DNA of 45,425 nt, taken from the NCBI GenBank assembly GCA_017882465.1, contig JADGPN010000002.1, positions 1 through 45,425 on the forward strand, read 5' to 3'. The notes beneath the pieces were generated by a model. It did not search any database. It saw only the letters and a program-made list of their open reading frames with translations, and was not told where the DNA came from. The translations under genes were made by a program, and so were the position numbers. Positions 36,055-40,103 of the stretch are shown here, piece after piece; the stretch's first letter is position 1; each line of letters starts with the position of its first letter. Origin of the DNA: Solirubrobacteraceae bacterium. Lineage in GTDB: Bacteria > Actinomycetota > Thermoleophilia > Solirubrobacterales > Solirubrobacteraceae.

Positions 36055-37127
36055 CGGCCCGTGGCCCTGTGCAGCGCCTGCGCGAGCGCCTGGAGCTGGG
36101 ACGCCTGCCACTGCTCGAAGGTCGCGCCGGCGGGGGAGAGGGTCTCGGTCACGGTGACGACCGGAATCCCGCGCTGAGCGGCGAGGGCGTTGAGGGACTG
36201 AATCTGAGGAGTCGCGTTCTGCGAGTTGTAGATCCAGACCTCGAGCCGGTGCTGCGCGATCTGCTGCTGGGCGGTGACGGCGCCCTGGGCGCTCACCTCC
36301 GTGCCCTCGCTGACCGCCTTCATGAACGAGCTCGGCGTGATCAGCCGCAGCCCGAGCGCGGGTGAGAGCAGCGCGAAGATGCTCTCAGAGGCGCCGACGG
36401 GGACGCCGGAGAACCTGGTCCTGATGGCGGCGATCAGCTGGTGGTAGCGGGCCAGGCCCTGGGATTCGAAGTCCGCATGCCGGCCGTCGAAGTACGTCGC
36501 GTCGTGCGGATCGAGCCGCTTCAGACTCGCGGTGATGGCGGCTGCCACCGCATCGGCGTCAGCCGGGCTGTACCAGCGATGTGGGTTCTCGCCCTCTCTG
36601 AGTCCCAGCAGGCTGCCGACCGTGAGCACCTGCCGACCGAGGGTCGGGTTCGCCGCCAGCAACCTCGGCGCCCAGGGGTCGTAGCCGATCCCATTGACGA
36701 TCACGAGCTGAGCCGTCGCGAGCGTCCGTGCGTCGGCCGCGGTCGGCTCGTAGGAATGGGGGTCCGAGGCTGGGTTGACGATGATGCTCTGCACGCTCGC
36801 GTGGGTGCCGGCCAGCTGGCCGGCGATGCTGCCCCAGAAGTTCTCCGCCGCCACGACGCGGATCGGGCCGCCCAGCTCGGCCGCACCACCGCCGCAGCCG
36901 GACACCAGCAGCGCGAGGACGGGCAGCAGCGCGAGAACGCGGAACGGCTTGGTGACGCGGATGGGCGCGAGGGCGCGCGATGGCTTGCCTGGCGCGAGGG
37001 CGCGCGATGGCTTGCCTGGCGCGAGGGCGCGCGATGGCTTGCGTGGCGCGAGGGCGCGCGATGGCTTGCCTGGCGTGAGCGCGCGCCGGCGGGCGGTCGG
37101 GATGTGCTCACGGCGGCGCCGGCGCAT
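36051..37127 (-). CDS. Metal-binding lipoprotein, ZnuA-like, with N-terminal repeats
   Basis: A 358-residue cluster A-1 binding protein (ZnuA/AztC type). The metal site is suggested by SDPHSYEPTAAD and GENPHRWYSP histidines; the third usual His position reads GASESIFALLSPALGL (Glu/Ser), as in a subfamily with altered ligands. Lipobox LVSGC has Cys78. Before the hydrophobic signal segment lie about 60 basic residues containing four copies of PGKPSRALA. No in-frame ATG, GTG or TTG occurs between the repeats and the signal, and the ATG at 37127 lies seven bases after -10 TAGCTT, so the extension is probably translated. Confidence 0.9.
   Translation of the reverse strand: MRRRRREHIPTARRRALTPGKPSRALAPRKPSRALAPGKPSRALAPGKPSRALAPIRVTKPFRVLALLPVLALLVSGCGGGAAELGGPIRVVAAENFWGSIAGQLAGTHASVQSIIVNPASDPHSYEPTAADARTLATAQLVIVNGIGYDPWAPRLLAANPTLGRQVLTVGSLLGLREGENPHRWYSPADADAVAAAITASLKRLDPHDATYFDGRHADFESQGLARYHQLIAAIRTRFSGVPVGASESIFALLSPALGLRLITPSSFMKAVSEGTEVSAQGAVTAQQQIAQHRLEVWIYNSQNATPQIQSLNALAAQRGIPVVTVTETLSPAGATFEQWQASQLQALAQALHRATGR
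36965..37088. repeat. 27-bp tandem repeat, four copies plus part
   Basis: Units start at 36965, 36992, 37019 and 37046, each 27 bp (plus-strand core GAGGGCGCGCGATGGCTTG), nearly identical, with a degenerate fifth part to about 37088. The length is a multiple of three, so copy number changes keep frame. On the minus strand each unit encodes PGKPSRALA in the N-terminus of the metal-binding lipoprotein. Confidence 0.9.
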
Positions 37128-37134
37128 GCGAGAC

Positions 37135-37191
37135 AAGCTATCACGTATTTGGGATTGAGTCTCGTTCTGTGAATTCTGGGACTCAATCCCA
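37135..37191. promoter_or_regulatory. Operator between metal importer and Fur-type regulator
   Basis: TGGGATTGAGTC (37150-37161) and GACTCAATCCCA (37180-37191) are a perfect 12-bp inverted repeat with an 18-base spacer. On the minus strand, -10 TAGCTT (37140-37135) lies seven bases before the lipoprotein ATG, so the proximal arm covers its -35. The distal arm lies about 20 bases before the -10-like TACAGT (37210-37215) of the regulator. A Fur-family repressor is the natural candidate. Confidence 0.6.
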
Positions 37192-37226
37192 GACATGGGT
37201 GGCGTTGGCTACAGTTGGCGCCGGAG

Positions 37227-37670
37227 ATGTCTCACACCGAAGCCCCCACCTGGAGCGAACACGTCCACTCGGTGCTGGCCCGGGCCGGTCACCAGCGCGG
37301 CGGGGCGCGGGAGCGGGTGATCGAGCTGCTCGCGCGCCAGCCCTGCGCCCTGAGCGCGGTCGAGATCGAGGACGCGCTTCGCGCCGAGGGAACGCCGATC
37401 GGCCGAGCCAGCATCTACCGGGTGCTCGAGCTGCTGGTCGAGCACGGCCTCGCCGAGCGGGTCGCCGTCGGCCCGGGCCAGTCACGGTTCGAAGCCATCG
37501 ACCCCAGCGGAGCCCATCATCACCACCTGATCTGCCGCGAGTGCGGGCGCCTCGTGGCCTTCGACGACCCCGGCCTCGAACGGGCGATCGACAACCTCTC
37601 CCGGCGCCTCGGCGTTCGCGTCGAGCACCATGACGTGCTGCTGCGCGGCTCGTGCGAGAAGTGCGAGTAG
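37227..37670 (+). CDS. Fur-family metal-responsive repressor (probably Zur)
   Basis: 147 residues, the usual Fur length. The N-terminal winged helix has ERVIELLARQPCALSAVEIEDAL and GRASIYRVLELLVEHGLAERV. The dimer/metal domain has HHHHLICRECGRLVAF (His97-100, Cys103, Cys106) and a second CxxC, Cys143/Cys146, forming the structural zinc site. It is divergent from a zinc/manganese importer, so Zur or a manganese sensor is more likely than an iron Fur. The start ATG 37227 follows GGAG. A TTG four codons earlier is open but lacks support. Confidence 0.92.
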   Translation: MSHTEAPTWSEHVHSVLARAGHQRGGARERVIELLARQPCALSAVEIEDALRAEGTPIGRASIYRVLELLVEHGLAERVAVGPGQSRFEAIDPSGAHHHHLICRECGRLVAFDDPGLERAIDNLSRRLGVRVEHHDVLLRGSCEKCE

Positions 37671-38192
37671 GGGGCGGGTCGTCAGGTGCGGCGCGCGGGC
37701 TGTGGTACTGAGCCGGCGGTGGCGCGCGCGGCGGGACGTGGCGTGCGCGCTGTGAGCCAGTTTGCATGGGCGGCGGGGCGGGCGCTCGGGTGGTGTGGCC
37801 GGCTGTGGCGGGCGCGGCAGGGTGCGGGGTGCAACGGCGGCTGAGGAAGAGGGTTTCAGGCGGCCTGGATGCGCGGGCAGGGCTCCGGGGCGCCATAGGC
37901 CCTGATGCCCCGGAAATCAGGGTGCAGAACGTGCCAAATGCACCCGCCGGATCGCGAACGAGTGCACCTAAGCACGTGGGGAGTGCTTAGGTGGCCAAGC
38001 TCGCCACGGAGGACGTCATTTGGCACGTTAAGCACCCTGAATTTCGGTCGATCGAAAGCAGAACGGCGATAACGACTGCGAGCCCTCGCTCCCTCCCGTG
38101 CCGACATCCCCATCCCCAGCCGCCGTTTACCTCCCGCAGCACCACACCCCACGAGGCCGCCACGGAGCGGACCGCGCCCCCGCCACTCCTCC
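37671..38192. other. 522 bases without protein-coding genes
   Basis: The first about 200 bases are G-rich repetitive low-complexity sequence. A nested inverted-repeat element occupies 37910-38047 (listed separately). The rest (38048-38192) is C-rich filler up to the stop of the carboxylase gene. Open frames on both strands here run through the palindrome and show no family resemblance. Confidence 0.6.
37910..38047. repeat. Nested palindromic element (REP/MITE-like)
   Basis: The outer arms, 37910-37940 and 38017-38047, are inverted copies matching at 27 of 31 positions; both contain CAGGGTGC and AACGTGCCAAATG. Inside lies a perfect 11-bp hairpin, CACCTAAGCAC (37965-37975) with GTGCTTAGGTG (37983-37993), loop of seven bases. 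The whole is 138 bp, encodes no protein and is less GC-rich than its flanks. Confidence 0.8.
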
Positions 38193-40103
38193 TCACCACG
38201 CATCCACGTTCGGTCGCCGTTTCCCCTCGCGCCGCCACCATTCGCCCGACCCGTCCTCGAACAGCGTGGCGATCCAGCGGCGGGTGTCGGCGGGATCGAT
38301 GACGTCGTCGATCTCGCCGTACTCGGCCATGCTGATCCCCTTGCCGCGCTCGTAGGCGGCGGCCACCGTGGCGTCAAAGACGCGCTGGCGCTCCTGTTCG
38401 TCCTCGATCGCCTCGAGCTCCCGGCGCATGCCCAGCCGCACGGCTCCTTCGAGGCCCATGGCCCCGAACTCGGAGGTCGGCCACCCGATCGTGAACAGGG
38501 GCGCCTTGAAACCGCCGCCGGCCATCGCCTGGGCGCCGAGCCCGTACCCCTTGCGCAGCACGATGGTGCCCGTCGGCACCTGAAGGTTGGCTCCGATCAG
38601 GAACAGCCGCGAGAAGTGACGCACGGTCGCCGTGCGCTCGGCGGCCGGCCCGACCATGAAGCCGGGGGTGTCGCACAGGAACACGACCGGGAGGTCGAAG
38701 GCGTCGCAGAGCTGGAGGAATCGAGCCATCTTGTCGGCGCCGTGGGCGTCGATTGCTCCGCCGAGGTGCGAGGGGTCGTTGGCGACCACGCCAAGCGGTC
38801 GGCCGTCGACGCGGACCAGCGCGGTCACCGCGCCGAGCCCGAAGCCGCGTCGAAGCTCCAGCACCGACCCCTCGTCGAACAGGCTGTCGACGATGGCGCG
38901 CACGTCGTAGATGCGCTTGCGCTGATCGGGGATCAGGTGGCGCAGCGCGCGCTGGTCAGGCACCGAGAAGTCGCTCGCCGGGCCGCGGAAGTAGGACAGG
39001 TAGCGCCGGGCGGCCGCGACCGCCTCCGCGTCGTCCGGCACGCGGAGGTCGACCACGCCGTTGGCGTACTGGACGTCGACGGGGCCGACGTCGCCGGGCT
39101 CGTGCACGCCGAGGCCGCCGCCCTCGATCATCGCCGGGCCGCCCATCCCGATGCTCGAGTCCTCGGTGGCGATCACCACATCACAGCAGCCGAGCAGCGC
39201 AGCGTTCCCGGCGAAGCAGTAGCCGGAGGCGATCCCGATCAGCGGCACCAGCCCGCTCAGCTGGGCGAACAGCTGGAAGGCGCGGCAGTCGAGCCCGGCG
39301 ACGATCGGGAAGTCGATGTCGCCCGGCCGGCCGCCGCCGCCCTCGGCGAACAGCACCACCGGCAGGCGGCGCCGCTCGGCGAGCTCGAACAGCCGGTCCT
39401 TCTTGGCGTGGTTGCGCCACCCCTGGGTCCCGGCGAGGACCGTGTAGTCGTAGGACATGACCACGCACGGCCGGCCCTCGACATCGCCCACGCCGGCCAC
39501 CAGGCCGTCGGCGGGGGTCCGGGCGATCAGCTCCGCCCGCTCACGCCGGCGTTCCTGGGCGGCGAAGACGAGCGGGCCGTACTCGACGAACGTGCCCTCG
39601 TCGATGAGCTCCGAGAGGTTCTCGCGTGCCATTCGCCGACCGCGCTCGTGGCGGCGCTCCACGACCTCGGGACGGGCGGCGTCGAGCGTCAGCCCGTGGC
39701 GCTCCCGGACGGCGGCCAGATCGTCACGAATCGAGTTCAGGTCCGTGGTCTCCGCTTGCTGCCGGGTCCCGTCGGCGGCCTCGCCCGACCTCAGCACCGC
39801 CAGCAGCTGACCCTCGTCGACCGTGTCGCCGACCGCGACCTCGATCCGGTGCACGAAGCCGTCGGCGTCGGCGACGACCTCGTGCTCCATCTTCATGGCC
39901 TCCAGAACGACCACTGCCGCTCCGGCGCGCACCGGCTCGTCGGGGCCGTGGGCGACCGCGATCACGGTGGCCGAGAAGGGCGCCGTGATCCTCAGCTTGG
40001 CGTTGGGCATCGCGGGATCATCGCGCACCCGGTCTCCGACCGGGCGGCAGGCCCAGCCGGTGCGGGCGATGGTGGCGGTGCCCTTCGTCACGAGCTTGGG
40101 CAC
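38193..40103 (-). CDS. Biotinyl-domain / carboxyltransferase fusion (acyl-CoA carboxylase)
   Basis: 636 residues from GTG 40103. Residues about 36-95 form a biotinyl domain with the biotinylation motif EAMKMEH (Lys71). Residues about 125-630 form a carboxyltransferase of the propionyl/methylcrotonyl-CoA beta type, with FVEYGPLVFAAQ, PCVVMSYDYTVLAGTQG, LFAEGGGGRPGD, GIASGYCFAGNAALLGCCDV, LPVVFLCDTPGFMVGPAAE and LRKGYGLGAQAMAGGGF. These enzymes carboxylate acyl-CoAs using a biotin carboxylase that is not encoded in this window. The start is uncertain: GTG 40103 gives a plausible N-terminus (PKLVTKGTATIARTG), while ATG 40010 is the next option. It is divergent from acetoacetyl-CoA synthetase, 76 bases away. 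Confidence 0.87.
   Translation of the reverse strand: MPKLVTKGTATIARTGWACRPVGDRVRDDPAMPNAKLRITAPFSATVIAVAHGPDEPVRAGAAVVVLEAMKMEHEVVADADGFVHRIEVAVGDTVDEGQLLAVLRSGEAADGTRQQAETTDLNSIRDDLAAVRERHGLTLDAARPEVVERRHERGRRMARENLSELIDEGTFVEYGPLVFAAQERRRERAELIARTPADGLVAGVGDVEGRPCVVMSYDYTVLAGTQGWRNHAKKDRLFELAERRRLPVVLFAEGGGGRPGDIDFPIVAGLDCRAFQLFAQLSGLVPLIGIASGYCFAGNAALLGCCDVVIATEDSSIGMGGPAMIEGGGLGVHEPGDVGPVDVQYANGVVDLRVPDDAEAVAAARRYLSYFRGPASDFSVPDQRALRHLIPDQRKRIYDVRAIVDSLFDEGSVLELRRGFGLGAVTALVRVDGRPLGVVANDPSHLGGAIDAHGADKMARFLQLCDAFDLPVVFLCDTPGFMVGPAAERTATVRHFSRLFLIGANLQVPTGTIVLRKGYGLGAQAMAGGGFKAPLFTIGWPTSEFGAMGLEGAVRLGMRRELEAIEDEQERQRVFDATVAAAYERGKGISMAEYGEIDDVIDPADTRRWIATLFEDGSGEWWRREGKRRPNVDAW

Follow-up and report, generated by a model that had tools for sequence, protein, structure and literature searches.

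The promoter of S. agalactiae AbiEi contains two 23-bp inverted repeats to which the protein binds, and the gene of the M. tuberculosis AbiEi antitoxin Rv2827c is preceded, within 131 bp of the start codon, by four inverted repeats (13 bp apart within and 4 bp apart between pairs), all of which are bound, giving four bound species in electrophoretic mobility shift assays (PMC7319586). In REPIN/RAYT systems (TnpA-REP and REP), dispersed non-autonomous palindromic repeats are paired with a single dedicated protein gene, which itself bears the repeat (PMC3116915, PMC8266576). Here, we analyzed a nested inverted-repeat element in a stretch of 45,425 nucleotides (the window) of contig JADGPN010000002.1 from a Solirubrobacteraceae bacterium, a soil actinobacterium whose genome assembly (G000) comprises 5.5 Mb in 757 contigs. 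The genomes used for comparison were assemblies or metagenome-assembled genomes (MAGs) of varying completeness. We consider it probable that the element represents an isolated copy of a four-box operator of the AbiEi type, which would be recognized in trans by the product of an AbiEi-DUF559 gene on another contig (C525) of G000. As in the Rv2827c operator, four alternating inverted repeats form two pairs with a short gap between them, and the arrangement is found before an AbiEi-family gene (PMC7319586). In contrast to the 23-bp repeats and 13/4-bp spacing of Rv2827c, the boxes here measure 17 bp and are spaced by 21 and 5 bp; also, Rv2827c has only one operator, which is followed by a toxin gene, whereas here the partner is an AbiEi-nuclease-like fusion and the sites are scattered over the genome. 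With REPIN/RAYT the system shares the dispersed repeats and the dedicated gene, but its partner combines AbiEi and DUF559 instead of being a Y1 transposase, its units are of another length and box geometry, and mobilization would here be a guess.

The original prediction had described two 31-bp arms (37910–37940 and 38017–38047) with 27 of 31 matches, a perfect 11-bp hairpin between them (37965–37975 and 37983–37993, 7-nt loop) and a GC content below that of the flanks, and all of this was reproduced, with 59% GC in the element against 75% and 69% on either side. The inverted repeat is real and above chance: it was the sole symmetric centre in the window with arms of at least 27/31 matches within 200 bp, and six shuffled windows contained none. 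Overlooked had been that outer arms and inner hairpin are a single 17-bp box occurring four times in alternating orientation (F-21-R-5-F-21-R, spacers in bp, about 114 bp in total), and that a second inverted repeat lies outside the element (Table 1); its presence in many copies and the AbiEi/nuclease partner gene had gone unnoticed as well. In its F-R-F-R order and fixed spacing, the window element agrees with the four-box sites described below. It sits in a convergent gap between a Fur-family gene (37215–37670, + strand) and an acyl-CoA carboxylase gene (ending at 38193, − strand). About 520 bp separate the stop codons of these genes in the window, compared with 3–28 bp in three relatives (G009, G023 and G006); therefore, the element is part of an insert.

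The same four-box arrangement was found at the start of AbiEi-DUF559 genes. In the truA-surE locus of G006 and G023, it marks the start of an AbiEi-nuclease-like fusion gene that is followed by surE; the counterpart in G000 is on C525. The C525 protein matched the PADLOC AbiEi profile over residues 2–164 (1.4e-30) and, in its second half, Pfam DUF559 (2.4e-11). While the window copy in the fur/carboxylase gap is not in front of an AbiEi gene, the C525 copy, which is of the same box dialect, is. In the copy-poor genomes G012 and G374, one element is located at the start of a gene with AbiEi_4 and DUF559/MTES_1575 domains. We scanned 1.5 kb of upstream sequence for each of 88 DUF559 genes from the genus, using the geometry without regard to box sequence; 12 of these upstream regions scored at least 65, compared with 0–1 for eight altered geometries. 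All 12 sites were 620–723 bp before the DUF559 domain, which corresponds to the gene start, and the box sequence varied from gene to gene. AbiEi_4 domains exceeded the cut-off in 61 of 119 sampled Actinomycetota genomes. A search of a literature collection retrieved no paper naming AbiEi together with DUF559, nor any match for Solirubrobacter combined with palindromic intergenic repeats.

Boxes share a consensus within a genome and differ between genomes, which enabled a matching of dispersed copies to genes. Weight matrices were derived from the dispersed copies of each genome, leaving out gene-adjacent copies, and scored on about 99 AbiEi-DUF559 loci. For all six testable dialects the gene of the own genome ranked first, in one case tied with an ortholog. 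The C525 gene of G000 scored 83.0 (next locus 49.2), the G019 gene 82.0 (58.7), the gene for the second dialect of G018 90.8 (64.6) and the G012 gene 71.5 (29.8). For G006 the score was 90.7, followed by 82.3 for the G023 ortholog, while the G023 gene tied with its G006 ortholog.

Copies of the element are numerous in the own genome. BLAST of G000 with the window element detected diverged copies on other contigs, further ones were recovered by searching with the outer repeat, and a covariance model yielded about 14 full copies (28 hits, as counts refer to both strands and loci are about half) plus one cut by a contig end. Copy length is constant (113–116 bp) and the geometry steady to ±1 bp. 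Most G000 copies share about 68–81% identity with the window copy over alignable parts, and the 20–21-bp spacers are unrelated among copies. Thus, the suggestion of a transposon-like repeat was correct in that the element is multi-copy and, judged by the shorter gap in the relatives, inserted; a single copy without relatives had been named beforehand as the outcome speaking against it, and copies were found both in the own genome and in relatives.

Within the genus, tens of copies each were present in G006, G018, G022, G023 and G019, and fewer in G014, G012 and others; most other species were without the element, including two represented by single-contig genomes (G011 and G015). A pattern scan of the genomes of 85,000 species, from which the genome of the window was possibly omitted, returned multi-copy matches only in four Solirubrobacterales MAGs (CP_BM_RX_R9_18, CP_BM_ER_R8_22, CP_BM_RX_67 and CP_BM_RX_R8_18), together with scattered single matches in unrelated phyla at about the number expected by chance. 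In viral contigs, the pattern returned no elements, and no protein relatives were found there. With a multi-dialect model, the same geometry with quite different boxes was also detected in a small number of further genera and families within the order. In a genome of another family (G298, loci L327 and L330), several matches covered the inner hairpin alone, TTCCTTATGCGCC...GGCGCATAAGGAA, and may represent an unrelated hairpin family.

The inner sequence is GCGCTTATG in G006 and G023 and ATGCTTATG in G018 and G022; G000 has CATGCTTAGGTGGCCAA, and G019 as well as a second set in G018 have GTGCATAACGCGTCAC. G014 mixes two dialects. Many copies occupy orthologous positions across species, yet they are written in the dialect of their host. 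Flank identity pairs G006 with G018 and G022 with G023 (this is not a proper phylogeny), whereas the dialects pair the opposite way. In one G023 copy (L140), one inner box is of the GCGCC type and the other of the GATGC type, a half-switched state expected if boxes change one at a time. In orthologous copies of the same dialect, boxes were 82% and spacers 58% identical. DNA uptake sequences likewise comprise many dispersed sites per genome in a lineage-specific dialect; they are short single sites, in contrast to the four-box arrays of about 114 bp described here.

Whether the symmetry belongs to an RNA or to a DNA site can be judged from the same data. A structured non-coding RNA with outer and inner stem, one of the options in the original prediction, would explain that the stem sides covary strongly across dialects. 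Within a genome, however, agreement between boxes m1 and m4 and between m2 and m3 was in most tests no better than between boxes from different copies, the exceptions being G018, with its mixture of two dialects, and a weak signal for the outer pair in G000 (p=0.024). This argues for four independent sites for one protein and not for a base-paired stem. Together with the persistence of the half-switched copy L140 and an Rfam search in which no family reached the gathering score (there was only a sub-threshold miRNA match), the missing compensatory changes within genomes did not bear out the RNA proposal, and we regard it as highly improbable.

The other explanations accept a DNA site and differ in what maintains or moves it. 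If the AbiEi-like protein controlled the genes next to the dispersed sites, a regulon would result, as also suggested by the conservation of boxes at orthologous positions and by the proposal that Rv1044 may regulate genes elsewhere (PMC7319586). The placement of the copies makes this unlikely: they are intergenic and mostly avoid shared promoter gaps, being enriched in convergent gaps (26/69 against 7/67 in the background) and depleted in divergent ones (7/69 against 19/67; gap orientations were counted with a simple purpose-written gene caller), and no gene family recurs beside them. Quite unlikely is a conventional miniature inverted-repeat transposable element (MITE) moved by an unrelated transposase, which in G000 would have captured the operator as cargo and would end in the outer inverted repeats. 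In its favor, such a repeat accompanies many, though not all, of the dispersed G000 copies (12 of 27 arms outward, none inward) and was not found at the C525 copy. However, it was not found around the copies of other species, which have as many copies or more, and no consistent target-site duplication was seen around copies, whose ends are uncertain. This outer repeat is a local trait that belongs to the dispersed copies in G000.

The REP/BIME assignment offered by the original prediction, or a REPIN of RAYT type, fits the palindromic, intergenic and multi-copy nature of the element and its dedicated partner gene at one locus. It did not hold up, and appears extremely improbable, because the four-box unit of 114 bp contrasts with 20–40 bp in REPs and most element-bearing genomes checked are without a Y1 transposase gene: no Y1_Tnp match was obtained in G006, G018, G022, G023 and G019, while three were obtained in G000 and three in the copy-less G011. 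Two further identities were rejected. Integron attC sites have RYYYAAC/GTTRRRY core boxes with closely set R and L boxes; the ends of some G000 copies would fit (GCTTAAC/GTTAAGC), but other species have GCAAAAC, the boxes are 21 bp apart and the copies are single and scattered. For an autonomous transposon with half-elements at its ends, isolated halves would be expected, but none was found in G000 (model R1), where the one partial copy is located at a contig end.

Several results weigh against an AbiEi-type operator recognized by an AbiEi-DUF559 partner. Most of the 88 DUF559 genes did not exceed the controls in the geometric scan, and among 30 AbiEi loci sampled across the phylum none had this geometry above controls. 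In G008, one element lies away from any AbiEi gene. Also, the G012 matrix was built from two copies, G014 gave no clear gene match, and no cognate gene turned up for the main dialects of G018 and G022, for which the truA-locus orthologs of relatives scored best; possibly, this is due to the completeness of these MAGs (73% and 86%). The C-terminal domain of the partner is predicted to be nuclease-like from its profile match, and the AlphaFold model of the protein was poor (mean pLDDT 45) and therefore not used.

For the operator copies, we propose the following course of events. The four boxes would be read as duplex DNA by the C525 AbiEi-DUF559 protein, probably with one protein per box. The four-box site directly before the start of the C525 gene is most likely an autoregulatory operator comparable to that of Rv2827c, and insertion would have placed operator copies at about 13 further sites, mostly in intergenic gaps. 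Most likely, the protein binds both its own operator for self-control and the scattered copies. The boxes would remain readable and track changes in the specificity of the C525 protein because they are selected by it or depend on it. Our favored guess is that the copies multiply in a REPIN/RAYT-like manner, as non-autonomous elements assisted by the nuclease-like domain, whose presence makes such protein-assisted spreading plausible. Four young G023 copies (L141, L142, L144 and L148) are 92–96% alike over about 500 bp. Part of the partner gene is present in them, its order permuted relative to the source locus (L155), and gene remnants beside dispersed copies were found in these young G023 copies only. 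These fragments show the gene locus to be a possible origin of copies, and their permuted order hints at a tandem or circular intermediate.

Some further observations concern the surroundings of the copies and of the window element. In G006, G018 and G022 (L086, L102 and L124), a four-box element lies in frame inside a UvrD/PcrA helicase intein, at the place expected for the homing endonuclease. In G022 (L118), a tandem array of additional m1-type boxes (ATGCATAACGCAGC, roughly every 50–65 bp) adjoins a four-box element, and in G000 a Y1_Tnp (IS200-like) gene (C564:15525–15800) is located about 300 bp from an element (C564:16115–16256). In the window, the gap separating a metal-binding lipoprotein gene from the fur-type gene contains a perfect 12-bp inverted repeat TGGGATTGAGTC / GACTCAATCCCA with 18 bp spacing (37150–37191) that resembles a Fur/Zur-type operator. 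The N-terminal coding part of the lipoprotein gene contains direct 27-bp tandem repeats (36980–37086, PSRALAP repeats).

Table 1. Positions of the four-box element and associated features in the window.
Feature	Position	Strand	Sequence or remark
Nested inverted-repeat element	37910..38047		core defined by covariance model, 37922-38035
Box m1 (F)	37922..37938	+	GTGCAGAACGTGCCAAA
Box m2 (R)	37960..37976	-	reverse complement CGTGCTTAGGTGCACTC
Box m3 (F)	37982..37998	+	AGTGCTTAGGTGGCCAA
Box m4 (R)	38019..38035	-	reverse complement GTGCTTAACGTGCCAAA
Outer inverted repeat, left	37833..37847	+	AACGGCGGCTGAGGA; only around dispersed copies of G000
Outer inverted repeat, right	38113..38127	-	TCCCCAGCCGCCGTT
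Inter-stop-codon region	37671..38192		holds the insert with the element; insert ends not exactly placed

Taken together, the data point to a partnership of a protein and genomic repeats of a little-known kind. It is possible, at somewhat less than an even chance, that a new repeat-and-partner class exists, in which AbiEi-DUF559 operators have multiplied chromosome-wide as non-autonomous elements and in which protein specificity and sites co-evolve as species dialects. If so, the copies would be natural cognate sites with built-in specificity data for AbiEi binders fused to a nuclease-like domain. With many paralogs, several of them printed beside their own four-box site, protein-DNA recognition in this family would be decodable from sequence alone. 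The system would also be a second, unrelated case of the RAYT-REPIN logic, and it raises the question why a cell would maintain numerous sites on its chromosome to which a nuclease-like protein binds.
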